Below, in pieces: positions 30,160-44,082 of a stretch of 64,000 nucleotides of DNA (within the stretch, counting starts at the first letter, position 1; the number at the start of each line of letters is the position of its first letter). Under the pieces are notes generated by a model. That model was not told the DNA's origin. It saw only the letters and a program-made list of their open reading frames with translations, and did not search any database. The stretch is from Modestobacter excelsi (GTDB lineage Bacteria > Actinomycetota > Actinomycetes > Mycobacteriales > Geodermatophilaceae): positions 1-64,000 of the forward strand of contig NZ_SJEX01000014.1 in NCBI RefSeq assembly GCF_005930495.1, written 5' to 3'. Both the position numbers and the translations under genes were made by a program.

Positions 30160-33015
30160 TCAGCCGGCGAAGACCCCCGCCAGGTGCTCCCGCACCACGG
30201 CGTCGGTCACCACCCGGGTGCGGAGGCCGACGTGCCCGTCGGGCCGCACCAGGTACGCCGCCGTCCCGCTGTCCGGGACGCCGTAGGCGGCGGCGAAGCC
30301 GCCCTGCGCGTCCCGGACGACCGGCAGGTCGACCAGCGGCGGCACCGTGGCGTCCGGGGCTGCGACCAGGTAGGGGTGCACCTGGCCCTGGGTCGACTGC
30401 CGGACCGACGCGGCCAGCTTCTCCAGTGCCGCGAGGTCCTCCTCGCCGACCCCGGCACCGGCGTACAGCAGCAGGGTCGCGTGCGTCCCGCGGGTCAGGT
30501 CGAACAGCCGGAGGTCGTGCGCGACGCCGAAGCGGCGCAGCCCCAGGACGTCCGGCGCCCGGTACCCGGGCTGCGGACCACCGGCGAAGCCCTCCCGGTC
30601 GGTCACCTCCCCGACCAGCGGGCTCCCGGCGTAGTTCATCGTCATCTGCATCTCGAGCAGGAACTGCGCCTTCTCGTCCTCCATGTCCATCTCGTCGGTG
30701 AACGCGATGGCGACGGCGCGGTCGACGATCGCCTTGCCCGCCGGACGCCGCTCGGCGTCGTAGCTGTCGAGCAGACCCGGCGCGGCCAGCCCCCGGACGG
30801 CGAGCGCGAGCTTCCAGCCCAGGTTCCAGGCGTCCTGGATCCCGGTGTTCATGCCCTGCCCACCGGCCGGTGGGTGCAGGTGCGCGGCGTCCCCGGCGAC
30901 GAAGACCCGGCCCTCCCGGTACCGGTCGACGATCCCGTGCTTGACCCGGAAGATCGACGACCAGCGCAGGTTGCTCGCGGTCGCGCCCGCCGGCCCCACG
31001 TCGTCGATCGCCGCCTGGATGTCGGCGAGCGTCGGCGGGGTGTACTCCTGCCAGAACCCGGGTGGCACCACGCCCGAGCCGATCGTCTTCTGCAGCGGCT
31101 CGGGGGCCAGCGTGGCGATCCGGTAGCGGTTGCGGCCCTTGAGCGGGACGCAGACCAGCATGCCGGTGAACGCACCGTCCTCCTCGATCCGCACCCAGCG
31201 GACCAGGTGACCCGGCGGCATGTCCCAGTCGACGTCGACGTCGCCCAGCATGAACAGCTGCGGGAACATCGACACCCCGCCCTCGAAGTCCAGCCCGAGC
31301 CCGGCCCGCACCACGCTGTGCGCACCGTCGCAGCCGACCAGGTACTGCGCCCGGGTGGTCTCGGTCTCCCCCGACGGGAGCCGCAGCTGCGCGGTGACCC
31401 CGTCGTCGTCCTGGCTGAAGCCGACCAGCTCCACCCCGCGCTCGACGGCGACGCCGTGCGCGAGCAGCCTCGCGGTGAGCAGCCGCTCGGTGTCGTACTG
31501 GGGGAGCCCCAGGTGGGCGTAGGGGAGCTCGTCGAGGCCGGCCCAGTCGACCTGGTGGGTCTGCTTGCCGTTGACGAACACCGTCTGCCCGTGCAGCCAG
31601 ATCCCGGCGTCCATCGCCTCGGCGACGATGCCCTGGTCCTCCCAGATCTCCATCGTCCGGCAGTGGATGCCGATCGCCTTGTCCGCCTGGGTCGCCGCCT
31701 GCGCCCGCTTGTCGACGACGCGGACGGCGATGCCCCGGCGGGCGAGCTCCAGGGCGTGGGTCAGCCCGGCCGGGCCGGCACCGGCCACGAGCACCTCGAC
31801 GTCCCCGCCGACGGTGCGCGGGGTGATCGGCCCCGGGACGGGTGCGGCGGCGTGCTGCGTGCCCGGCGCCTCGACGAACTCCTGCACGGGTGCACTGGGC
31901 ACCGGCGCGGGCTCGACCGGCGCGGACACCCGCGGCGCCGGGGCCGGTGCCGCAGCCGCGACCGGTGCGGCCGCGACCGGCTGGGCCGGACCGGTGGACC
32001 CGGCGGCCGGCTCGGGGAGCGGCCAGCCGCCGCCACCGGCCTCCACCGGGCGGTAGCGGATCTCGAAGTGCCGGCGGTTGAACTCGACCGACAGCCAGCG
32101 GATCAGCGCTGCGCTCTGGTCGGCGTGCGAGGGGTCGTCGACCCAGGTGATGAAGTCCTGCTCGGACTCCCACTCGGCGAAGATGTGGTACCTCGGCGCG
32201 CCGATCTCCTTGAGCAGCTCCTCCCGGATCAGCCCGGGCGTGCCGCGCAGGGTGGCGGTCGTCCTGGCGTAGGCGGCCTCGAAGGCATCCTCCTCGCCCG
32301 GCTCGACCCGGGTGCTGATGTCGATCCGGACGTGCGGTCGCGTCGTCGGCTCCGCCGACCCGCCACCGGCCTCGGCCGGACGGTGCCGGATCTCGTAGTG
32401 CTGGCGGTTGAACTCCACCGACAGCCAGCGGATCAGCGCGGCGCTCTGGTCGGCGTGCGAGGGGTCGTCGACCCAGGTGATGAAGTCCTGCTCGGACTCC
32501 CACTCGGCGAAGATGTGGTACCTCGGCGCGCCGATCTCCTTGAGCAGCTCCTCCCGGATCAGCCCGGGGGTGCCGCGCAGGGTGGCGGTGGTCCTGGCGT
32601 AGGCGGCCTCGAAGGCCTCCTCCTGGCCCTCGTCGACCCGGGTGCTGATGTCGATCCGGACGTGCGGCGGCCGGTCGTCCTCGGCGGGCTGCCCGCCGTC
32701 GACGGTGTACAGCAGCTCGTAGGTGCTGCGTGACGCGTCCTCCCGCAGCTCGCGCAGCGCCTCGGTGAGCGTCTCCCGGGCACTGCTGCGGCCGAACGCG
32801 TCGACCGCGGCACGGTCGACCCAGTCGCTGGTGATCACGAAGGTCCGCGGGTCGTCGGCGTCGCGCACGAGCTCCTGCCGCAGGTTGCCGGGGACCTTGC
32901 TGATCTCCGCCGCCGCCCGCCGCCAGTTCTGCTCGAACTCCGCCTCGCACCCCTCCCGCGTGCGCATCCGCAACAGGGTGCGCACCACCGGGGCCTTCTC
33001 GGTCGCTGCCGTCAT
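30160..33015 (-). CDS. Triple-ABM FAD-dependent aromatic monooxygenase
   Basis: The 951-residue protein has three ABM (antibiotic biosynthesis monooxygenase, ferredoxin-like) domains at about 8-105, 116-210 and 226-320, a Pro/Ala linker at about 321-415, an FAD hydroxylase of the PheA/TfdB-UbiH group (GAGPAG at 422-427, and the FAD motif GDAAHLHPPAGGQGMN), and a thioredoxin-like C-terminal domain. Single ABM proteins oxidise polyketide quinols to quinones without cofactor, and the FAD enzymes hydroxylate aromatic rings, so two late oxidations may be joined in one chain (inference). ABM domains 2 and 3 are almost identical. The gene is last in the operon, with an ATGA overlap with the chain-length factor gene. 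Confidence 0.93.
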   Translation of the reverse strand: MTAATEKAPVVRTLLRMRTREGCEAEFEQNWRRAAAEISKVPGNLRQELVRDADDPRTFVITSDWVDRAAVDAFGRSSARETLTEALRELREDASRSTYELLYTVDGGQPAEDDRPPHVRIDISTRVDEGQEEAFEAAYARTTATLRGTPGLIREELLKEIGAPRYHIFAEWESEQDFITWVDDPSHADQSAALIRWLSVEFNRQHYEIRHRPAEAGGGSAEPTTRPHVRIDISTRVEPGEEDAFEAAYARTTATLRGTPGLIREELLKEIGAPRYHIFAEWESEQDFITWVDDPSHADQSAALIRWLSVEFNRRHFEIRYRPVEAGGGGWPLPEPAAGSTGPAQPVAAAPVAAAAPAPAPRVSAPVEPAPVPSAPVQEFVEAPGTQHAAAPVPGPITPRTVGGDVEVLVAGAGPAGLTHALELARRGIAVRVVDKRAQAATQADKAIGIHCRTMEIWEDQGIVAEAMDAGIWLHGQTVFVNGKQTHQVDWAGLDELPYAHLGLPQYDTERLLTARLLAHGVAVERGVELVGFSQDDDGVTAQLRLPSGETETTRAQYLVGCDGAHSVVRAGLGLDFEGGVSMFPQLFMLGDVDVDWDMPPGHLVRWVRIEEDGAFTGMLVCVPLKGRNRYRIATLAPEPLQKTIGSGVVPPGFWQEYTPPTLADIQAAIDDVGPAGATASNLRWSSIFRVKHGIVDRYREGRVFVAGDAAHLHPPAGGQGMNTGIQDAWNLGWKLALAVRGLAAPGLLDSYDAERRPAGKAIVDRAVAIAFTDEMDMEDEKAQFLLEMQMTMNYAGSPLVGEVTDREGFAGGPQPGYRAPDVLGLRRFGVAHDLRLFDLTRGTHATLLLYAGAGVGEEDLAALEKLAASVRQSTQGQVHPYLVAAPDATVPPLVDLPVVRDAQGGFAAAYGVPDSGTAAYLVRPDGHVGLRTRVVTDAVVREHLAGVFAG
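32050..32670. repeat. 330-bp tandem duplication (ABM domains 2 and 3)
   Basis: Two copies at about 32050-32340 and 32380-32670 have an exact offset of 330 bases (110 codons) and only scattered base differences over the inner 200 bases. The near-identity at synonymous sites points to a recent duplication or ongoing gene conversion. Confidence 0.92.
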
Positions 33016-34253
33016 GCTGCCTGCTCCTCCTGGTGTCGGCGCAGCACCAGGCTGCTGTTGAAGCCCCCGAAGCCACGGGCGAGGACGACGACGGTCCCGA
33101 CGTCCTGCACCCGGTTCTGCTGCACGAGGTCGACACCCGGCGCGTCGACCGGGTCGTCGAGGTGGGCGGTGCCGGGCACGATGCCGTCCCGGATGGCCAG
33201 CAGCGCGGTCGCCACGTTGAGCGCCGAGCCACCGGCCATCAGCCGCCCGGTCCAGGACGAGGGGGCCGTCACCGGTACCGGTGTGGCCCGCCCGCCGAAG
33301 ACCCGCTGGAGCGCCTCGAGCTCCAGCGCGTCCAGCTCGGGCACCCCGGCCCCGTCGGCGAGGACCAGGTCGACCTCGTCCGGCGTCACCCCGGCGTCGG
33401 CCAGGGAGAGCCGGATCGCCCGGGCGTACTGGGTGGCGTCGGGTGCGGGGTCCTCGTGGTGGTGGGCGTCGTGCGTGGCGCCGTAGCCGGCGACCTCGCC
33501 CCAGACCTGCCGTGCGCCCCGGGCGCGGGCGGCGCCCGGCTCCTCCAGCAGCAGGATCGCGCCGCCCTCGCCGATCACGTGACCGTTGGCCCGGTGGTCG
33601 AACGGCTTGTAGGCGTCCTCGGGCCGGGTCGCCGTCGACAGCCGGCCGCTGGTCGCCTGGCACAGGAGCGCGTACGGCGTCACGCCGGCCTCGGTGCCGC
33701 CGACCAGGACGGCGGGCGTGCCGCGGCGCGCGACCCGGCGGGCCCAGCCGATGCTGTCCAGCCCGCCCGCGCCCTCGCTGACCACCACGCCGGAGGGGCC
33801 CTTGTAGCCGTCGCGGATGGAGAGCTGCCCGGTGCTGGCCGCGTAGAACCAGGCGATCGACTGGTAGGCGCCGACCGACTTGGGTCCCTTCGCCCACAGC
33901 CCCTGGATCTCGTGCTGGCTGAACTCGTTGCCGCCGGAGCCGGCCGCCAGGAACACCGAGGTCGCGTAGGCGTCCTCGGGCGCCTCGTAGCCCGCGTCCT
34001 GCGCGGCCAGCGTCGCGGCCGCCAGCGACGTCCAGGTCCAGCGGTCGGTCTGCACCATCAGCTGCGGCGCCACGAACGCCTTCGGGTCGAAGTCGCGGAT
34101 CTGCCCGGCCAGCGTCACGCCGTACTGGTCGGTGTCGAAGCCCTCGATCGGCCGGATGGCCGGCTCCCCGCGGACGAGGGAGGACCAGTGCGCCTCGACG
34201 CCGACGCCGGTGGGGGCGACGACGCCGATCCCGGTCACCAGCAGCCCGGTCAT
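33012..34253 (-). CDS. Type II polyketide chain-length factor (KS-beta)
   Basis: The 413-residue ketosynthase-fold protein has no active-site Cys. The corresponding loop reads [14 protein letters not shown], so Gly161 replaces the Gln that most chain-length factors carry here and that has been linked to malonyl decarboxylation. It forms a heterodimer with KS-alpha and sets chain length. The ATG overlaps the KS-alpha stop and its own stop overlaps the next ATG (ATGA both times). The product length cannot be deduced from sequence alone. Confidence 0.93.
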
Positions 34254-35554
34254 GCGCTCCTCCTCGTCGGGGAGGCCAGCACGATCGCCGACTGGAAGCC
34301 GCCGAAGCCGCTGCCGACCGACAGTGCGACGTCCACCTTCTGCTCGCGGGCGGTGTTGGGCACGTAGTCCAGGTCGCACTCGGGGTCGGGCACCCCGTAG
34401 TTGGCCGTCGGCGGCACCACGCCGCGCTTGACCGCCAGCGCGGTGGCGGCGATCTCGATCGACCCGATCGCGCCGAGCGAGTGCCCGACCATCGACTTGA
34501 TCGAGCTCATCGACACCTGCTGGGCGGTCGGGCCCAGGCTGCGCTTGACCGCGGCGGTCTCGTGGCGGTCGTTCTGCTTCGTGCCCGAGCCGTGGGCGTT
34601 GACGTAGCCGACCTCGTCGGGGTCGATCCGGCCCTGGTCCAACGCCAGCCCGATGGCCTCGGCCATCTCGATGCCGTCGGGCCGCAGACCGGTCATGTGG
34701 AAGGCGTTGCACCGGTTGGCGTAGCCGCTGACCTCGCAGTACACCTCCGCGCCGCGCTGCCGGGCGTGGTCGAGCTCCTCCAGCACCAGCACCGCGGCAC
34801 CCTCGCCCATGACGAAGCCGTCCCGGCGGGCGTCGAAGGGCTTGGAGGCGTGCTCGGGGTCGGCGTTGTTGGCGGTCGTCGCCCGGATGGTGTCGAAGCA
34901 GGCCATCGAGATCGGGGAGATGGGGGCGTCGCTGGCCCCGGCGATCACCACGTCGGCGTCGCCGTCCTCGATCAGCTGGGCGCCGTAGCCGACCGCGTCG
35001 ATGCCCGAGGTGCAGCCGGTGGAGACCACGGTGGCCGGCCCGTGGGCGCCGAAGCGCACCGCCAGCTCGGTGGCCCCGCAGCTGGGCACCAGCGCCTGGT
35101 GCAGGAACCGAGTGGCGTACCGCGGGTCGACCAGCCAGTGCTTCCCCGCGTCGCTGACCGCGACGTACTCGTTCTCCAGCCGCATGGTCGCCCCGACCGC
35201 GCTGCCCAGGGTCACCCCGACCCGGTCCGGGTCCGGGGCGTCGTCCGCGCCGCCGGCCCCGAAGGTCAGCCCGCTGTCCGCGACGGCCTCGTCGGCGGCC
35301 ACCATCGCCATCTGCACGAACCGGTCGTTGCGGTGCACCTCGTGGGCGGTCAGGCCCAGCTTGCGCCCGTCGAAGTCGACCTCGGCCGCCACCTGCGAGC
35401 GGAAGCGGCTCGGGTCGAAGAAGGTGATCCGCCGGGTCGCCGTCCGGCCGGCGGTGATCATCTCCCAGAAGCCCTCGCGGCCCATCGAGCCGGGGGCGAC
35501 CACGCCGATGCCGGTGATGACGACCCGGCGTCCCGAGGGGGTGGGGGTGCTCAC
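34250..35554 (-). CDS. Type II polyketide ketosynthase (KS-alpha)
   Basis: The 434-residue protein has active-site Cys181 in [12 protein letters not shown] and the two catalytic histidines His321 ([11 protein letters not shown]) and His358 ([12 protein letters not shown]). It condenses malonyl units on the acyl carrier protein as a dimer with the chain-length factor. The GTG start overlaps the cupin stop codon. In most type II clusters the ACP follows KS-beta, whereas here it lies five genes upstream. Confidence 0.97.
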
Positions 35555-35982
35555 CGGACGCCCATCGAGCCAGGCGAGGGCTCGGTGTCGACGTGGCCGA
35601 GCTCGGGCCGGGGGGCCAGCGGCCCGGCGAGGAAGACGAAGAACGCCGTCTCCGCGCCGTCGTTGACGATGCGGTGTCGCACCCCGATCGGGATGTGCAC
35701 GGCCGACTCGCCGCCCAGCCGGCGCTCCTCGCCGTCCAGGGTCACCAGCACGTCGCCGGAGACGCAGTAGAGGAACTCCTCCGAGTACGGGTGCCAGTGC
35801 TCGGTGACGACCTCCCCCGGCTCGAGGGTGAGCGTGCCCATGAACCCGGCGGTGGCGCCCACGCTGGTCGGCGAGAGCAGCACTCGGATGTCACCGCCGC
35901 GACGGCGGTTGGGGACCGCGTCGGCCCGGGACACGGTGGGCCCGCAGCGCACCTTCGCCGTGGGGTGCTGGATCGTCGTCAT
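35551..35982 (-). CDS. Cupin-domain polyketide cyclase (TcmJ/WhiE-ORFII-like)
   Basis: The 143-residue single cupin has [15 protein letters not shown] as the metal-binding motif 1 and [13 protein letters not shown] as motif 2. Cupins of this kind accompany spore-pigment and tetracenomycin-type clusters and assist cyclisation or oxidation. The ATG overlaps the stop of the acyltransferase homologue, and its own stop overlaps the KS-alpha GTG. Confidence 0.9.
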
Positions 35983-36947
35983 CTCTCTCCTCCGGTGGGG
36001 GCCGGGCCCGTCAGCGCGGGTTCCGGGAGTGCGGTGGGGGTGAGCGCACCGGGCGCGGTGGCCAGGTGCAGCGGGAGGTCCGGGTGGACCTGGCGGATCA
36101 GCGGGCCGAGGGTGGGCACGGGGCCCACCTCCACGACCCAGGTGGCACCGGCCCCGACCAGCGCGCGCGAGGTCGCCTCCCACTGCACCGGCGAGGTCAG
36201 GTGCGCCCGCAGGCACCGGGCCAGGTGGTCCGGGTCGCGGGTCGGCCGGCCGTCGGCGTTGGGCACCACCGGGACGTCCGGGACGGACCAGTCCAGGTCG
36301 GCGAGGGGTGCGGCGAGGTGGTCGGCGACGGACTGCATCAGCGGGCCGTGGCAGGCGGCCCGCCCGGGGAGCCGGACCATGTCCAGCCCGGCTGCGGTGA
36401 CGGCCGTGCGCGCCTGCTCCAGCTCCTCCCGGCTGCCGGAGAGCACCACCTGCGCCGGGCCGTCGAGGGAGGCCACGCTCAGCCCGCCGGCCGCCAGCTC
36501 GGTGACCACCGCGCGGGCGACCTCCGCGGCTCCGGGGCCGACGACGGCGGCCATGCCCGCACACGAGGGGCGCGGCGCGTGCGCCAGCGCCTCCGCGCGC
36601 CAGTCGACGAACGCCACCACCTGGTCCAGCGGCAGGGCGCCGGCGGCGACCAGCGCCGCGTACTCCCCGACGCCGTGCCCCGCGACGACGACCGGCCGCA
36701 GACCGGCGGCGACCAGGCTGCGGTACCCCGCGACCCCGGTCACGACCGCCGTCAGGTGCGCAGCCACCGGGTCGCAGAGGTTGAGCGGGTCACCCCACCA
36801 CGGGACGACGTCCCGGCCCAGCACGTCCGAGGCCTCGGCCACGACGTCCCGGGCGGCCTCGTCGCCGAGCCAGGCGTCGAGGGCGCCGGGGCGGGCGCTG
36901 CCCTCACCCGGGAGGACGACCGCGGCCCCCGGGGCGAGGTCGGTCAC
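35979..36947 (-). CDS. Acyltransferase homologue (FabD-like) lacking the catalytic serine
   Basis: The 322-residue protein has the fold of malonyl-CoA:ACP transacylases. Arg117 (VDWRAEAL) and His200 (CHGPLMQ) match catalytic residues, but the nucleophile motif GHSxGE reads GHGVGE at 90-95, with Gly92 in place of Ser; the codon is GGC. The N-terminal oxyanion motif PGQGS reads PGEGS. It may be a non-catalytic partner, act through another residue, or act as a hydrolase-like editor. It is coupled by GTGA to the upstream cyclase and by ATGA to the cupin. Confidence 0.88.
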   Translation of the reverse strand: MTDLAPGAAVVLPGEGSARPGALDAWLGDEAARDVVAEASDVLGRDVVPWWGDPLNLCDPVAAHLTAVVTGVAGYRSLVAAGLRPVVVAGHGVGEYAALVAAGALPLDQVVAFVDWRAEALAHAPRPSCAGMAAVVGPGAAEVARAVVTELAAGGLSVASLDGPAQVVLSGSREELEQARTAVTAAGLDMVRLPGRAACHGPLMQSVADHLAAPLADLDWSVPDVPVVPNADGRPTRDPDHLARCLRAHLTSPVQWEATSRALVGAGATWVVEVGPVPTLGPLIRQVHPDLPLHLATAPGALTPTALPEPALTGPAPTGGER

Positions 36948-37438
36948 GTCGTCGGCTCCGCGTGCCTGGCGGCGGCCTCCACCTTGTCCCGGATGACGGC
37001 CATCTGGACCTTGCTGTTCGCGTCGATGCGCTCGGTCATGCCGGCCGTGTCGATCGGCGCCTCGGGCCGCATCCGGAAGTCCTGCTGCCACCGCATCCGG
37101 GTGCCGGTGCCCTCCGGCGCGTAGTTCCACCGGATGTCCATGAACTCGAAGGGGCCGGGCTCGACCCGCTTCGCCACGACCTCGTGGGCGGCCTCGTCCA
37201 GGGTGCGCTCGGAGATCCAGCTCCACACCCGGCCGGACTCGTCGGGGTGCATCTTGAGCCGGAACCGGAACGTCGAGCCGTGCTGGGCGAGCATCTCCAC
37301 CTCGGCGTACTCGGTGAAGAGGTCCGGCCAGGTCGTCAGGTCGTTGGTCATCCGCCAGACGTGGTCGATGTCCGCGTCGATGAAGATCGAGTTGTCGGTG
37401 TGGCCGACGGTCCGGCTGTCGTTCTCGAGGGTGCTCAT
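36944..37438 (-). CDS. SRPBCC aromatase/cyclase
   Basis: The 164-residue single-domain START-fold protein (IDADIDHVWRMTNDLTTWPD at the N-terminus, SWISERTLD in the core) is similar to the WhiE-ORFVI/TcmN-N-terminal aromatase/cyclases that direct first-ring formation. The ATG at 37438 has GGAGGACC before it. It is the first gene after an intra-operon stem-loop element and a 100-base gap following the ACP, so it may start a second translational block. Confidence 0.9.
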   Translation of the reverse strand: MSTLENDSRTVGHTDNSIFIDADIDHVWRMTNDLTTWPDLFTEYAEVEMLAQHGSTFRFRLKMHPDESGRVWSWISERTLDEAAHEVVAKRVEPGPFEFMDIRWNYAPEGTGTRMRWQQDFRMRPEAPIDTAGMTERIDANSKVQMAVIRDKVEAAARHAEPTT

Positions 37439-37480
37439 CTGGGTCCTCCGGCTGGCTGCCTGGGTCAGGGGGTCGGGCAC

Positions 37481-37538: not shown

Positions 37539-37793
37539 TCAGGCCATCTGCGACTGCGCCGAGGAGACGGTCGCGACGATCTCGCCCAGCGTGTAGCGGT
37601 CGGGGTCGTCGTCGGGCATCTCGGTGCCGAACCGGTCGTGCAGCTCGGTCTGCATGGACAGGAAGGCCAGCGAGTCCAGCCCGATGTCGGCGAAGTGGGC
37701 GTCGGGGTCGGTGGTGCGCGACTCCGGGGGGAGCCCGGCCTTCTCGGAGAGCAGGTCCATCAGGTCGTCGAGGGTGAACGAGGTGTCGGGCAT
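37539..37793 (-). CDS. Acyl carrier protein (internal start within the AccC-ACP frame)
   Basis: The 84-residue ACP has the phosphopantetheine site DIGLDSLAF with Ser41. The ATG at 37793 is preceded by GAGAGGAA at a good distance, so it can be translated by itself as well as part of the AccC fusion in the same frame. It carries the growing poly-beta-keto chain. The gene lies five genes before KS-alpha. Confidence 0.85.
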   Translation of the reverse strand: MPDTSFTLDDLMDLLSEKAGLPPESRTTDPDAHFADIGLDSLAFLSMQTELHDRFGTEMPDDDPDRYTLGEIVATVSSAQSQMA

Positions 37794-39281
37794 GGCGGTG
37801 TTCCTCTCAGGGGTGGGTGGACGGGACGGCCCCGGCCGGTCGCTGCCGGACGGTGCCGGGACGAGCTGCAGCGACCCGTGGGCGGCGGGCATGGGCGCCG
37901 TCGGGGTCGCCGCGAGGGCAGCTGCGGAGACCAGGAGCTCGGGCAGGCTGCGGTCGAGGAACTCGATGTCGTGCCGGTCGGCGCGCACGTCGGGGTGGCG
38001 GAGCATCGCCCGTTGCAGGGCGATGGTGGTGTGCAGCGCCGGCCCCTCGACCCGCAGCTCGGCCAGTGCCCGGTCCATCCGCCGGACCGCCTGGTCGCGG
38101 TCGGGGGCCCAGACGACGAGCTTGCCCAGCAGCGAGTCGTAGTGCGGGCTCACGTCGTCGCCCTGCCGGTAGCCGGTGTCGAACCGGGTCCACGGCCCGC
38201 CGGGGACCTGCAGGACGTCGAGGTGGCCGGGGGCGGGGGCGAAGCCGCGGGCCGGGTCCTCGGCGTTGATCCGGCACTCGATCGCGGCGCCGCGGGTCAC
38301 CACGTCCTCCTGCTGCAGCTGCAGCCGCCGGCCACCGGCGACCAGCAGCTGCTCCCGGACGAGGTCGACGCCGGTGAGGGCCTCGGTGACCGGGTGCTCG
38401 ACCTGGATGCGGGCGTTCATCTCCATGAAGTACGCGCCGGCGCCGTCGACCAGGAACTCCATGGTCCCGGCGCCGGTGAACCCCACCGACAGCGCACCGC
38501 GCACCGCGAGGGCGCCGAGGTCGGCGCGCTGCTCGGGGGAGAGGTGGGCCGCGGGCCCCTCCTCCAGCAGCTTCTGGTGGCGGCGCTGCAGCGAGCAGTC
38601 GCGCTCACCGAGGTGGATCCCCGCGCCGTGCCCGTCGCAGAGCACCTGCACCTCCACGTGCCGGGCGCGGCTCAGGTAGCGCTCCACGTAGACGGTCGGG
38701 TCGCGGAACACCGCGCGGGCGACCGCGCGGGTGGTGGCGAAGGCCTCGGCGAACTCCCCCGGCGCCGACACGACCGTCATCCCGCGCCCGCCGCCGCCGG
38801 CCGCCGCCTTGATGATCACCGGGTAGCCGATCTCGTCGGCGATCGCCAGCCCCTCCTCCGCCGTCCGGACCGGCTCGACCACCCCGGGCAGCAGCGGCAG
38901 GCCGGCGTCGGCCATCAGCCGGCGGGCGGTGGCCTTGTTGCCCATCTGCTGCATGACCTCCGGCGGCGGACCGACGAAGGTGAGCCCCTCGATGTCGCAG
39001 ATCTCGGCGAAGTCGGGGTCCTCGGACAGGAACCCGTAGCCCGGGTGGACGGCGTCCGCGCCGGTGCGCAGCGCGGCCTCGATCAGGTTGGGCACGTGCA
39101 GGTAGCTGCGCCGGGGGGCGGGCGGGCCGATGTGCACCGCCTCGTCGGCCATCGCCACCACCGCGGAGTCCCGGTCGGAGGTGGAGTAGGTGGCGACCAC
39201 CTCGATGCCCAGCTCCCGGCAGGCGCGGGCGATCCGGACGGCGATCTCGCCGCGGTTGGCGATGAGCAGCCGGCTGATCAC
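37539..39281 (-). CDS. accC: Biotin carboxylase fused in frame to acyl carrier protein (AccC-ACP)
   Basis: The open frame encodes 580 residues without a stop. Residues 1-450 are a complete biotin carboxylase: LLIANRGEIAVRIARACREL, the ATP-grasp glycine loop KAAAGGGGRGM, and EMNARIQVEHPVTEALTG. A Pro/Ser-rich stretch of about 40 residues follows, then an ACP (see 37539-37793). The GTG start overlaps the accB stop as GTGA. It carboxylates biotin on AccB for malonyl-CoA synthesis. A separate ribosome-binding site before the ACP means free ACP may also be made. A frameshift error in the linker is the main alternative. Confidence 0.85.
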   Translation of the reverse strand: MISRLLIANRGEIAVRIARACRELGIEVVATYSTSDRDSAVVAMADEAVHIGPPAPRRSYLHVPNLIEAALRTGADAVHPGYGFLSEDPDFAEICDIEGLTFVGPPPEVMQQMGNKATARRLMADAGLPLLPGVVEPVRTAEEGLAIADEIGYPVIIKAAAGGGGRGMTVVSAPGEFAEAFATTRAVARAVFRDPTVYVERYLSRARHVEVQVLCDGHGAGIHLGERDCSLQRRHQKLLEEGPAAHLSPEQRADLGALAVRGALSVGFTGAGTMEFLVDGAGAYFMEMNARIQVEHPVTEALTGVDLVREQLLVAGGRRLQLQQEDVVTRGAAIECRINAEDPARGFAPAPGHLDVLQVPGGPWTRFDTGYRQGDDVSPHYDSLLGKLVVWAPDRDQAVRRMDRALAELRVEGPALHTTIALQRAMLRHPDVRADRHDIEFLDRSLPELLVSAAALAATPTAPMPAAHGSLQLVPAPSGSDRPGPSRPPTPERNTAMPDTSFTLDDLMDLLSEKAGLPPESRTTDPDAHFADIGLDSLAFLSMQTELHDRFGTEMPDDDPDRYTLGEIVATVSSAQSQMA

Positions 39282-39814
39282 TGCGCGGCCACCGTCGGGC
39301 GCAGGTACATGAGGACCTGCCCGTACTCCACCGACTCGGCGTCCCCGGCGAGGACCTCGGTGACGACCCCCGCCTCGTCGGCCACGATCGGGTTCATCAG
39401 CTTCATCGCCTCGACGATCCCGAGCGTCTGGCCGGGCTCGACGGTGTCGCCGACCCGGACGAACGGGTCGGCGTCCGGGGACGGGGCGACGTAGAAGGTC
39501 CCGACCAGGGGCGCCGGGACGGCGACGACGTCGTCCGGGACGGCCGGCCCGGCGGCGTCGGCCGGGACGTCCCGGCCGGCCGGTGCGCTGCGCAGCGCGC
39601 CCCCGCCCTCGCCGGCGGGGCGGTCCTCGGCCGCCCACTCGACCTCGATCGCGGTGTCGCCGCTGCGCACGGTGAGCCGGCGCAGGTCGCCGGGCAGGCT
39701 GCGGGCCAGCTCGACCACCTCGTTGCTCAGCGACCGGGTGGTGTCGTCCGGCGGCAGCGGGGCGCCGCTCAGCGTCGGCCGGGGGGTGAACTCCGTCGGG
39801 TGCACGGTCAGCAC
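39278..39814 (-). CDS. accB: Biotin carboxyl carrier protein
   Basis: The 178-residue protein has an N-terminal helical segment, a Pro/Ala-rich linker and a C-terminal biotinyl domain with EAMKLM and biotinyl Lys138; APLVGTFYVAPSPDADPFV is the typical domain start. The GTG at 39814 overlaps the end of the accDA gene by seven bases; a GTG at 39805 is possible. It shuttles carboxybiotin between AccC and AccDA. Confidence 0.92.
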   Translation of the reverse strand: MLTVHPTEFTPRPTLSGAPLPPDDTTRSLSNEVVELARSLPGDLRRLTVRSGDTAIEVEWAAEDRPAGEGGGALRSAPAGRDVPADAAGPAVPDDVVAVPAPLVGTFYVAPSPDADPFVRVGDTVEPGQTLGIVEAMKLMNPIVADEAGVVTEVLAGDAESVEYGQVLMYLRPTVAAQ

Positions 39815-41556
39815 CCCGCCGGGACGACGGGCTGCAGCGTGCGCATGCGGCGGCCGGCGTTCCCGTCCATGCCGGACAACCGGCGGGAGCGTTCGGCCAG
39901 CAGGGTGGCCACGTCGGCCCGGGACAGCTCGTCCAGTTCGCGGAGGAGCGCCGCGCGGAGCAGGTCCGCTGCCGCGACCGGGTCGGTGTGCGCGCCGCCC
40001 GGTGGTTCGGGGACGACGGAGGTTGCGATGCCCGACCGGAACAGGTGGGTGGCGCCCAGCTGCATGGCCCGCGCCGCGGCGGGGGCCGCCGTCGCCGTCC
40101 GCCACAGGATGGCCGCGCACCCCTCGGGGCTGATCACCGACAGGTAGGCGTTCTCCAGGACCAGCAGCCGGTCCGAGGTGCACAGCGCCAGCGCGCCACC
40201 GCTGCCGCCCTCGCCGGTGACCACGGCGACGACGGGGACCCGCAGCCGGCTGCTGCGCATGATGATCTCGGCGATCGCGTGGGACTGCCCGCGCTCCTCC
40301 GCCTCCGGTCCCGGGTGCGCCCCGGGGGTGTCGACGAGGGTGACGACCGGCAGCCGGTGGGCCTCGGCGTGCCCCAGCAGGCGCAGCGCCTTGCGGTAGC
40401 CCTCGGGGTGCGGCATCCCGAAGTTGTGGGCGACCCGCTCGCGGACCGAGTGCCCCTTCTCGTGGCCGATCACCACGACCGGACGGCCCCCGATGGAGGC
40501 GACCCCGCCCACCACGGCGGGGTCGTCGCCGAAGGCCCGGTCGCCGTGCAGCTCGACGAAGTCGTCGAAGGCGGTGTGCAGGTAGTCCAGCGTGGTCGGC
40601 CGGTCCGCGACCCGCGCCCGCTGGACGACCTCCCAGGGATCGCTCTCCGCCGGCGGGGGCTCGGGCCCTTCGGCCCACGCAGGCTCCGGCTCGCCGGCCG
40701 GTTCGTCCTCGGCCGGGACGCCGGCGCGGTCGCGGCCGTGCAGCGTGAGCAGCCGGATGAGCACCGGCCGCAGGTCCGCCCGGCTCTCGACCCGGTCCAC
40801 CAGGCCGTGGGCGAGCAGGAACTCCGAGGTCTGGAAGTCGCGGGGGAGCTCGGCGCGGATCGTCTCCTGGACCACGCGCGGGCCGGCGAAGCCCACGTGC
40901 GCGCCGCGTTCCCCGATGAGCACCGACGCGAGAGTCGCGAAGGAGGCGGAGACGCCGCCGTAGGTGGGGTCGGTGAGCACGCAGACCGAGAGCAGCCCGG
41001 CCTCGTGCAGCCGTCCGAAGGCCTCGCTGGCGCGGGCCATCTGGAACAGCGAGAAGACGCCCTCCTGCATCCGGGCGCCGCCGCTGGCGCAGACGACCAC
41101 CAGCGGCCGGCTCCGCTCCAGCGCCAGCGCGGCGGCCTCGCTCACCCGCCGGCCCACCTCGACGCCCATGCTGCCGCCCAGGAAGCCGAAGTCCATGACG
41201 GCGAGCACCAGGGGTGTCCCGCCGATCCGCGCCTCGCCCACCAGGACCGCCTCGGACTCCCCGGAGCGGTGCGCGGCGTCGCGGAGCCGCTCGGGGTAGG
41301 GGCGCAGGTCGGTGAAGGCCAGCGGGTCGGAGTCCCCGCGGGGGACCTCGGTCTCGGTGAAGCTCCCGGCGTCGACGAGCATGTCGATCCGGGCCCGGGC
41401 GCTGAGCCGCAGGTGGTGCTCGCACTCCGGGCAGACGTGCAGGTTGCGCTCCAGCCGCTTGTGGTAGAGCAGCCAGCCGCAGGCCGGGCAGGAGGTCCAG
41501 CCGGCGTGAACCGGTGCGGCGGGCACGCCGGGTGTCGTCAACGAGGAACGGGTCAT
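39808..41556 (-). CDS. accDA: Acetyl-CoA carboxylase carboxyltransferase, fused beta and alpha subunits
   Basis: In the 582-residue fusion, residues 1-290 are AccD with a zinc ribbon (CPAC and CPEC pairs) and the acyl-CoA crotonase fold; residues about 320-582 are AccA (FDDFVELHGDRAFGDDPAVV, then TLVDTPGAHPGPEAEERGQ). It transfers carboxyl from AccB to acetyl-CoA. Dedicated prokaryote-type ACCase genes occur in some type II polyketide clusters as a malonyl-CoA supply. It follows the TcmI-like cyclase by 29 bases. Confidence 0.93.
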   Translation of the reverse strand: MTRSSLTTPGVPAAPVHAGWTSCPACGWLLYHKRLERNLHVCPECEHHLRLSARARIDMLVDAGSFTETEVPRGDSDPLAFTDLRPYPERLRDAAHRSGESEAVLVGEARIGGTPLVLAVMDFGFLGGSMGVEVGRRVSEAAALALERSRPLVVVCASGGARMQEGVFSLFQMARASEAFGRLHEAGLLSVCVLTDPTYGGVSASFATLASVLIGERGAHVGFAGPRVVQETIRAELPRDFQTSEFLLAHGLVDRVESRADLRPVLIRLLTLHGRDRAGVPAEDEPAGEPEPAWAEGPEPPPAESDPWEVVQRARVADRPTTLDYLHTAFDDFVELHGDRAFGDDPAVVGGVASIGGRPVVVIGHEKGHSVRERVAHNFGMPHPEGYRKALRLLGHAEAHRLPVVTLVDTPGAHPGPEAEERGQSHAIAEIIMRSSRLRVPVVAVVTGEGGSGGALALCTSDRLLVLENAYLSVISPEGCAAILWRTATAAPAAARAMQLGATHLFRSGIATSVVPEPPGGAHTDPVAAADLLRAALLRELDELSRADVATLLAERSRRLSGMDGNAGRRMRTLQPVVPAGC

Positions 41557-41585: not shown

Positions 41586-41954
41586 TCACTCGGGCGACGA
41601 GGTCCAGTGGTAGAAGCGACGGGCCATCGCGTCCTGCGGTGAGCGCCAGTTCGGGTCGTAGGGCTCGATGTAGGGCTTGAGCTCGTCGCTCACCGACCGG
41701 AAGGCCGGCAACGACTGCGCGATCTGCATCGACTCCGACGGCGGCCGGTCGAAGCCGATCAGGTGCACGTAGAGGCCGTGGAACTGGAAGAGCGACCGGT
41801 GCCGCACCCCGATGTCGTGGGGCATGGACGTCGCGTCCGAGCGGCCGAAGACGGCGGCCACCTCGTCCGCGTCGCGGGGGTCCATCTTCGCGATGATCAT
41901 CGTCTCGTGCACGGGTGCTCCTGCGGCGGTGGGCGGGAAGAACCGGATCGACAC
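41586..41954 (-). CDS. TcmI family type II polyketide cyclase
   Basis: The 122-residue single ferredoxin-like domain has the family features MIIAKMDPRDADEVAAVF, HDIGVRHRSLFQFHGLYVHL and a C-terminal ARRFYHW. TcmI-type enzymes cyclise the last ring of tetracenomycin-like polyketides. It is the first gene of the polyketide operon; its promoter must lie in the 347-base gap shared with the LuxR-type regulator. Confidence 0.92.
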   Translation of the reverse strand: MSIRFFPPTAAGAPVHETMIIAKMDPRDADEVAAVFGRSDATSMPHDIGVRHRSLFQFHGLYVHLIGFDRPPSESMQIAQSLPAFRSVSDELKPYIEPYDPNWRSPQDAMARRFYHWTSSPE

Positions 41955-42301
41955 GGCAGACGCTAGGGCGGCTCCGGTGCTCCGGGCATCGGCCGCAGGG
42001 GCCGTTCTGGAGGGCCACCGGAGGTGGCGGGGCGGGGGTGGGCCCTCCGCCTCAGGGAGCGCGACCGCACCCCGGACCGAGCCCGTGTCCCCCGCCGTCT
42101 GGCCGTCGGCTCTGCCACCCGGGGCGGGTTCTCCCGACTCTCCGTGGGGTCGGACCCCCTACCCGGGTATGAACCGTCGGTCCGTCCCCGGGCAACGCGC
42201 GGTCGACTGTGGCGCTGACCTGGGGGTGTCCCCTAGCTTCCCGGTGACACCGACGTAGGTGGGCTCGGCAACGGGTGCCGTCCGGAGCGGAGTTGACACG
42301 C
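41955..42301. promoter_or_regulatory. Divergent promoter region of polyketide operon and regulator
   Basis: There is no gene in this 347-base stretch. It holds short inverted repeats such as GGGGTCGGACCCC (near 42148) and GGGGTGTCCCC (near 42225), both plausible regulator sites. A convincing -35/-10 pair could not be assigned by eye in this GC-rich DNA. Confidence 0.45.
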
Positions 42302-43075
42302 ATGAGCGGCGACCCGTTGTTCGGTACGGCCGGTGATGCCACGGGGGGTGGTCGTGTGCTTTCCGAGAGTGGTGACGGGGTGGTGACACCGCCCGCGGGG
42401 GTGCCGGTCCAGGTGCTCATCTGCGATGACCACGAGGTGCTCCGGCACGGTCTGCGCACGGTGCTGCTCCGCGCGCCGGACCTCACCGTCGTCGCCGAGG
42501 CGGCCGGCGCTGCCGAAGCCCTCGCCCTCGCCACGAGCGCGCGGCCGGACGTGACCGTGATCGGTCTCGGGGCGCACGGACCGGTCGTCCAGGAGCTCGT
42601 CCGGGCGTTGACCGCGATGGGCATCCGGGTCGTGCTGCTCGGCGAGCCCGGCGCCGGCAGCGACCTCATCGACGCGCTCCAGGCAGGGGCGAGCGGGTAC
42701 GTGCACACCACCGTGACCCCGCAGCGCCTCATCGACGGCGTGCGGGCCGTGGCGCAGGGCGAGACGGTGCTCGACGCGGCCGCGACGGGGGAGCTGCTGC
42801 ACCGTCTCGACGACGCGCCCCGGTCGGGCGACGGCGGGCCGGCCCTGCACAGCGGGCCGTTGACCGCGCGCCAGCAGACCGTCTCCCGGCTGGTCGCCGA
42901 GGGCCTGACCAACGCGGAGATCGCCGACCGGCTCAACGTCAGCCGGGCGACGGTCAAGGGCCACATCACCGTCGCCCTGCGTCGCCTGGGGCTCCGCGAC
43001 CGGACGCAGCTGGCGATCCACTTCCACCGGTCGACCAGGCCCGACGGTCGCGGACCAGGCTCGTCGAGGGGCTGA
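42302..43075 (+). CDS. LuxR-type regulator with degenerate receiver (1)
   Basis: The 257-residue protein has a receiver-like domain (about 35-155) and a C-terminal LuxR helix-turn-helix (LTARQQTVSRLVAEGLTNAEIAD). The acidic pair ICDDHE is kept, but the phosphoacceptor Asp reads Gly (VTVIGLG), and the switch Thr and Lys are also lost. Such atypical regulators of antibiotic clusters respond to ligands rather than phosphate. It is divergent from the polyketide operon and followed by a paralogue. The ATG at 42302 is preferred over an in-frame GTG at 42275. Confidence 0.9.
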   Translation: MSGDPLFGTAGDATGGGRVLSESGDGVVTPPAGVPVQVLICDDHEVLRHGLRTVLLRAPDLTVVAEAAGAAEALALATSARPDVTVIGLGAHGPVVQELVRALTAMGIRVVLLGEPGAGSDLIDALQAGASGYVHTTVTPQRLIDGVRAVAQGETVLDAAATGELLHRLDDAPRSGDGGPALHSGPLTARQQTVSRLVAEGLTNAEIADRLNVSRATVKGHITVALRRLGLRDRTQLAIHFHRSTRPDGRGPGSSRG

Positions 43076-43263
43076 GCGGCTCCGGAGCGGAACGACACGC
43101 CGCGTGCCTGTTCCACTGTGCATCTGCTGTGTCCGGGGTCGACGAAGGCGAGGACGCGGGACCAGTTGTTCGCTACGGTCTGTGCACCGTTGAGACGGAC
43201 GAGTGTCGGATCCACCCTCCGGTGGGGGGTGGCGTCGCCGCTCGCAGGACAGGGGGAGTCCTC

Positions 43264-44082
43264 ATGACCACGGACCACGGAGGGTCTCGGACGAGCCACG
43301 GCAGGCTGACCCTGCGCGCCCCCACGGACGAGGGGAGGAGTCGCTCTCTCCTGCGGGACGTGGCGCGCGCCCCTGGGCTGCGGGACACCGAGCTCCCCCT
43401 CCGGCCGCGCACGACCCGGCCACCGCGGACCCTGGTGCGGGTGCTGCTGTGCGAGGACCAGGAGGTCTTCCGGCTCGGCCTGCGGGTGGTCCTCGAGGCG
43501 CAGCCGGACATCGCCGTCGTCGCCGAGACCAGCCAGCTCCAGGAGGCGGTCGAGGTCACCGACGGCCCCGGCACGCAGGTGGTCGTCGTGCGGCAGGGCC
43601 TCCTGGGCGGTTCCAGCCTGCCGCTGCTGCGGGACCTCTGCCAGCGCGGAGCCGGGGTGCTGGTGCTCGCCGAGATGGGTGACCGGCCCGACTCCGGCAT
43701 GATGGAGGTGCTCCAGGCCGGGGTCCGGGGCTTCCTGCCGCGCCGGGCTGCGGCGTGCCGGCTCGTGGAGGCCGTCCGCGCGCTCGCCCGCAAGGAGACC
43801 GCGCTCGACTCCGCGGTGGCCAGCCAGCTCGTGCGCTACCTGACCGGGGACGCCGCCCAGGCCGACTGCGGGGGGCGGGCGCTCGACCGGCTCACCGAGC
43901 GGCAGCGCGACGTGGCCGCGCTGGTGGCCGAGGGGCTCAGCAACGAGGAGATCGCCAGCCGGCTGTTCCTGAGCCCGGCGACGGTCAAGAGCCACCTCAC
44001 CGCGGTGATGCGCCGCCTGGACGTCCGCACCCGCACCCAGCTGGCGATCCTGCTCAACCGCGACCACTCGCCCGCCGCCTGA
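43264..44082 (+). CDS. LuxR-type regulator with degenerate receiver (2)
   Basis: The 272-residue paralogue of the preceding gene has a receiver-like domain with CEDQEV and Arg in place of the phosphoacceptor Asp (VVVVRQGLL), then a LuxR domain (LTERQRDVAALVAEGLSNEEIAS). The ATG at 43264 follows GGGGGAG. Two unlike substitutions at the same site show that both proteins have abandoned phosphorylation. The pair may act as a heterodimer on the polyketide promoter (inference). The 188 bases before it hold no gene. Confidence 0.9.
   Translation: MTTDHGGSRTSHGRLTLRAPTDEGRSRSLLRDVARAPGLRDTELPLRPRTTRPPRTLVRVLLCEDQEVFRLGLRVVLEAQPDIAVVAETSQLQEAVEVTDGPGTQVVVVRQGLLGGSSLPLLRDLCQRGAGVLVLAEMGDRPDSGMMEVLQAGVRGFLPRRAAACRLVEAVRALARKETALDSAVASQLVRYLTGDAAQADCGGRALDRLTERQRDVAALVAEGLSNEEIASRLFLSPATVKSHLTAVMRRLDVRTRTQLAILLNRDHSPAA

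Follow-up and report, generated by a model that had tools for sequence, protein, structure and literature searches.

Dedicated multisubunit carboxylases are already known from polyketide synthase clusters. The fun and pks clusters of Lactobacillus reuteri possess one, as does the cluster described here; according to the available parts of that report their AccC is a separate protein of 447 or 459 residues, unlike the fusion presented below (PMC6498181). The actinobacterial loci compared in this work resemble our cluster in combining KS-alpha/KS-beta, an ACP and cyclases with cluster-borne accAD, accB and accC. A carrier domain at the C-terminus of a biotin carboxylase is familiar from the alpha subunits of actinobacterial acyl-CoA carboxylases (BC-BCCP, e.g. 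AccA3), and chains of such alpha subunits appear among the solved-chain matches of the front part of the protein studied here. In contrast to these alpha subunits, the protein studied here ends in a phosphopantetheine ACP, biotin being assigned to a separate AccB: a Biotin_lipoyl match sits on AccB and none is present on the fusion chain. The ACP of the actinorhodin PKS, a free protein, has a homologous carrier domain (2k0x, 1af8; E 4.1e-6), whereas the ACP of our cluster also forms the tail of AccC.

The sequence-only reading of this DNA knew of no described AccC-ACP fusion, and none was found in the literature searched, in which subscription papers are thinly covered so that absence from print is unproven. 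The accessible parts of a 2025 review on type II PKS (PMC12664062) mention neither acetyl-CoA carboxylase nor ACP fusion nor biotin, and those of an article from the same year on the engineering of type II ACPs (PMC11744666) lack the words fused, fusion and carboxylase. For Geodermatophilus maliterrae, T2PKS clusters with formicamycin- and xantholipin-like antiSMASH labels are mentioned (PMC12453565), one of which may correspond to our cluster; the available part of a paper on 11 stone isolates yielded no T2PKS passage (PMC9516006).

The window, i.e. the whole stretch of 64,000 nucleotides analysed, contains a type II, presumably aromatic, PKS operon in the order TcmI-type cyclase, accAD, accB, accC-ACP, SRPBCC cyclase, malonyltransferase homologue, cupin-like ORF (named by reading), KS-alpha, KS-beta and ABM/FAD monooxygenase (Table 1). 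KS-alpha carries TGCTSG, which we take to be the active-site cysteine stretch, in all 35 orthologous clusters compared. KS-beta is the cysteine-less partner, with EGAGG or EAAGG, presumably at the position of the active-site cysteine, in 34 of 35 clusters and one cluster unmatched by the pattern.

Table 1. Features of the accC-ACP operon; positions refer to the window.
Feature	Positions	Strand	Remarks
TcmI-type polyketide cyclase	41586..41954	-	Cyclase_polyket
accAD, fused carboxyltransferase beta-alpha	39808..41556	-	ACCA, Carboxyl_trans, Zn_ribbon_ACC
accB (BCCP)	39278..39673	-	Biotin_lipoyl; coordinates are those of the stretch scanned
AccC-ACP fusion ORF, 580 aa	37539..39281	-	GTG start overlapping accB stop (GTGA)
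Biotin carboxylase core, residues 1-446	37944..39281	-	Pfam, NF006367, closest solved chains, folded in model
C-terminal tail and linker, residues 447-496	37794..37943	-	residues 463-499 predicted disordered, pLDDT <50
LQLV motif in tail, residues 471-474	37860..37871	-	
Internal Shine-Dalgarno GAGAGGAA for free ACP	37801..37808	-	-9.7 kcal/mol
ACP, 84 aa, internal ATG start	37539..37793	-	PP-binding (Pfam)
SRPBCC-type polyketide cyclase	36944..37480	-	Polyketide_cyc2
Malonyltransferase homologue, GHG for GHS	35979..36947	-	Acyl_transf_1 on 35979-37016; start codon chosen by reading
Ketosynthase alpha	34250..35554	-	ketoacyl-synt domains; TGCTSG
Ketosynthase beta / chain-length factor	33012..34361	-	Pfam, motif; coordinates are those of the stretch scanned

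The claim of the sequence-only reading that the accC frame continues into the ACP without a stop holds: the minus-strand frame from GTG (39281) to TGA (37539) comprises 580 codons without an internal stop, and Pfam recognizes Biotin_carb_N, CPSase_L_D2 and Biotin_carb_C (residues 2-443) as well as PP-binding (residues 506-569) on one and the same translation. Among solved chains, the front part most closely matches biotin carboxylases and the back part ACPs, including that of the actinorhodin PKS. The AccC part scores 599.3 bits with NF006367, above the cut-off of 597, and 587.0 with TIGR00514, under the cut-off of 626.5. Its motifs RRHQKL and GGGGRGM are present in 35/35 clusters and EMNARIQVEH in 34/35, and the DSL stretch with the phosphopantetheine serine (37676-37668 on the minus strand, from residue 536) has its DSL in 35/35. 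An AlphaFold2 model (mean pLDDT 85.3), computed from an alignment of 25 sequences of which only two extend into the ACP, predicts a folded carboxylase and a folded ACP joined by a disordered stretch; the linker is rich in proline and serine. The local DNA has about 75% G+C, so the open frame alone is weak evidence; in the region that separates AccC core from ACP core in the 16 fused genes described below, the other two frames contain a stop in only 6 and 4 cases. The evidence that goes beyond chance is comparative, namely the occurrence of the fused frame in many orthologous clusters. A chance open frame in G+C-rich DNA was considered and rejected on the kept phase and the kept internal start, not on the missing stops.

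Searches for relatives in 59 genomes and then in 112 of the family, taken to be Geodermatophilaceae, gave 35 orthologous clusters at an E of 1e-150 or better. According to the sequence-only reading, uniformly separate genes in the relatives would have spoken against a fusion; in fact 16 of the 35 clusters, spread over five genus codes, carry the in-frame AccC-ACP fusion (g1: G000, G006, G007, G008, G010; g2: G135; g3: G024; g5: G026, G097, G098, G102, G103, G106, G113, G114; g12: G079), and three of these genomes (G008, G024 and G103) are single contigs. In the remaining 19 clusters accC and the ACP gene are separate and all lie in one and the same of the two other phases. There the AccC frame overruns the ribosome-binding site of the ACP gene and ends between 2 bases upstream and 61 bases downstream of the position at which the first ACP start codon begins; a -1 frameshift might conceivably produce the fusion in these clusters too. 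The third phase, which would extend AccC by 61 to 616 codons beyond the ACP start, is absent from all 35 clusters. Gene order and strand (accAD, accC, ACP, cyclase, AT, KS-alpha, KS-beta) are the same in 34 of 35 clusters, with only the AT match lacking in G118, and in every cluster accB directly precedes accC, the accB stop and the accC start overlapping (RTGA in 34, TGATG in G079).

A further scan of genome contigs returned at least 80 loci; those listed are mostly AccC relatives of less than 65% identity and include one fused relative. Outside the family 26 accC loci were examined; an ACP match follows downstream in nine, of which eight have separate genes. Among the outgroups, G249 has separate genes with an ATGA overlap, and in five clusters of family code f16 (L165, L166, L167, L179, L181) the genes are likewise separate, the accC stop coinciding with the ribosome-binding site or shortly preceding it. 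G356 (family code f15) possesses an AccC-ACP fusion of its own (534 aa; L175:4525-6129, minus strand), in which the AccC frame crosses Shine-Dalgarno sequence and ATG into PP-binding. Like ours it stands beside accB, accAD and a ketosynthase, but its linker has only about a dozen residues and a KR-type SDR and a flavin oxidase follow downstream. This fusion may be a one-base error, since among the 56 of 249 genomes of its family that gave a match, it alone reaches the ACP.

The fused frame contains a second start. An ATG at 37793-37791 on the minus strand, preceded by GAGAGGAACACCGCC, would yield an 84-residue ACP. The ribosome-binding site and ATG pointed out by the sequence-only reading are thus present, and Shine-Dalgarno sequence and start codon are kept in all 16 fused genes. 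Interaction energies of -9.0 kcal/mol or stronger precede the ACP start in 35/35 clusters; about 8% of 15283 control codon positions reach this value and the strongest 5% of ATG codons inside AccC cores (n=316) score -11.15 or stronger, so judged by sequence the strength of the site is not unique. Fused and separate clusters differ in that the ACP start codon is ATG in 15/16 versus 7/19 cases and that the median Shine-Dalgarno energy is -10.75 versus -9.1 kcal/mol (Mann-Whitney P 5.6e-5, uncorrected for kinship). Stronger internal sites would fit a need for unaided initiation in the fused genes, where no ribosome terminates nearby. Whereas type II PKS usually have a discrete ACP, the ACP is encoded in frame with AccC in 16/35 clusters, this one included, but has its own start site.

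Because the internal site is kept and on average stronger in the fused genes, we favour a single gene that gives two products, and we infer that both AccC-ACP and free ACP are made. That one gene could give both had been suggested by the sequence-only reading and is borne out in the sense of two possible products. On the whole, a genuine gene fusion that is at the same time a two-product gene, within a type II and presumably aromatic PKS operon, is the probable explanation. Ribosomes coming from accB would translate the biotin carboxylase, the flexible linker and the ACP into an AccC-ACP of about 62 kDa, while others would initiate at the strong internal site and produce the 84-residue ACP, probably the main chain carrier. 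Synthesis of AccC and ACP would be coupled in the fused as well as in the overlapping arrangement. More speculatively, the tethered ACP could be charged beside the carboxylase.

The most serious alternative, to which we assign somewhat less than an even chance, agrees with the two-product reading and denies only a role of the tether: the AccC frame would have drifted into the ACP frame in a G+C-rich operon of overlapping genes, the ACP tail would be harmless and the nested free ACP would do all the work. Conservation of the free-ACP start in all fused genes accords with this explanation, as does the fact that 19/35 relatives are unfused, which also counts against a strict need for the tether. 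The linker points in the same direction. From dN/dS in close groups (covering 11/16 fused and 14/19 separate clusters), values of 0.42 and 0.29 were obtained for the tail up to a conserved motif in fused and separate groups, respectively, and of 0.62 and 0.73 for the linker after it, the AccC core giving 0.12-0.14 and the ACP 0.40-0.46. By this measure the linker is loosely constrained at the amino acid level in both kinds of groups, and the stronger constraint on tail and linker that was sought in fused clusters was not found within these close groups. The motif itself, L[QHS]LV in the predicted-disordered AccC tail, occurs in 33/35 clusters, fused and separate alike, and is possibly a docking motif.

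On the other hand, a mere by-product is less easily reconciled with a fused frame that occurs across five genus groups and several linker lengths. On the 35-cluster tree, fused and separate clusters taken together, the distance between motif and ACP start changed at least 13 times and the phase at least twice, both counts being minima. Assuming that two thirds of indels are phase-shifting, about 8.7 phase changes are expected (binomial P about 2e-4, or 1.6e-3 if three phase changes occurred). The linker lengths of G113 and G114 are unsure owing to their non-standard motif. Within the fused set alone at least seven length changes took place; phase-keeping there is no test since the set is defined by its phase, and the count for the whole tree was therefore used. 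The separate clusters kept their one phase through at least five length changes, so that phase-keeping may in part reflect avoidance of long out-of-frame tails. Nevertheless, in 10/16 fused genes AccC would terminate no more than 11 codons from the ACP start if its frame moved to the other overlap phase. Escape from the fusion would thus have been easy, yet as few as two or three such shifts suffice to explain the tree.

The history of the fusion bears on the same question. Unrooted trees without outgroups, built on the joined sequences of AccC core, KS-alpha, KS-beta and AccAD, require at least three changes between the fused and the separate state and leave the direction open. In a rooted tree with three outgroups, to which cyclase and ACP core were added, one gain and two losses suffice in 854/1000 bootstrap trees and four changes are needed in 146; a quick tree with seven outgroups needs three changes as well. 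The position of the root rests on distant outgroups. Our data favour a single gain followed by two losses, the latter again being compatible with a dispensable tether. Most likely, loss of the accC stop gave rise to the fusion once, near the base of the Geodermatophilaceae clusters, and the fused gene was later replaced twice by the overlapping-gene arrangement. Taken together, the genomes argue for a real fusion that is widespread in the family and, if the favoured tree is right, of old origin with two losses, and for an equally real nested ACP start.

It is improbable that the fusion protein is the sole product and the sole chain carrier and the internal site incidental. This idea draws on the 71,080-base contig of the cluster, in which the PP-binding profile matches no ACP other than the fused one, but it leaves unexplained why internal Shine-Dalgarno sequence and start codon are kept in 16/16 fused genes and are on average stronger than in separate clusters. 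On another contig an 84-residue ACP frame stands alone, with a ketosynthase and an acyltransferase nearby; this acyltransferase has an intact GHSVG.

A sequencing or assembly error, a missed base in the linker joining two separate genes, which the sequence-only reading had raised because of a stop one frame off just before the ACP (the TGA at 37809-37807 is indeed there), is rejected with near certainty and the observed fusion regarded as genuine, because the same frame is open in independent genomes, namely G006, G007, G008 and G010 (94-97% identical) and those of four other genus groups, single-contig genomes included, and the out-of-frame TGA is absent in G007.

We turn back to the preferred two-product gene and to the question of how its ACP is charged. 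The malonyltransferase homologue of the cluster reads GHGVGE (36680-36663, minus strand) instead of GHSxG and thus has no nucleophilic serine. Glycine occupies this position in 33 of the 34 AT-bearing clusters (GHG in 32, GYG in G114); serine is present only in the deep-branching G113. Four of four outgroup ATs have serine, and G026 and G106 lack the histidine as well. With a dN/dS of 0.31 (25 clusters, close groups) the AT gene is under purifying selection, weaker than that on its neighbours, which suggests a maintained pseudo-enzyme. In G118 (L138), the single cluster lacking the AT match, the gap of about 430 bases between cyclase and KS-alpha holds, by reading, an ORF resembling the cupin-like ORF of the window.

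With an AT devoid of its catalytic serine, malonyl loading probably proceeds via housekeeping FabD, self-malonylation of the ACP or some other, unusual route. The physiological role of self-malonylation was called controversial in a 2021 review, and the source of malonate for the ACPs of type II PKS, transacylase or self-malonylation, is at issue (PMC7949117, as far as its available part goes). A tether serving malonyl loading, akin to the tie between malonyl-CoA supply and chain carrier proposed by the sequence-only reading, is an attractive, if speculative, idea. In its full form AccC-ACP would be a loading device: through self-malonylation or with the help of locally recruited FabD, the tethered ACP would be charged at the site of malonyl-CoA production, and this would have allowed the AT to lose its serine and to survive as a non-catalytic docking protein. 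We consider this unlikely though worth stating. The serine was lost in fused and separate clusters alike, so its loss by itself is no proof of a role for the tether; G113 is fused and has kept the serine, so the fusion may predate the loss. Clusters with and without a carboxylase-joined ACP in which the AT nucleophile is lost constitute natural pairs for testing malonate loading, and a carboxylase-carrier fusion, not encountered in the literature searched, could be used as a design in metabolic engineering.

Two further features of the locus were seen. At 30160-33039 on the minus strand, three ABM domains and the FAD monooxygenase share one frame, two of the ABM copies being nearly identical in translation. 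An ABM match within the open frame of the FAD part occurs in 33/35 clusters at a spacing of about 0.75 to 1.3 kb, the exceptions being G103, where the two are not in one frame, and G007, whose examined locus lacks the FAD part. Finally, two adjacent ORFs resembling LuxR-type response regulators, named from reading, lie at 42275-44082 on the plus strand, divergent from the operon, and are possibly regulators of the cluster.
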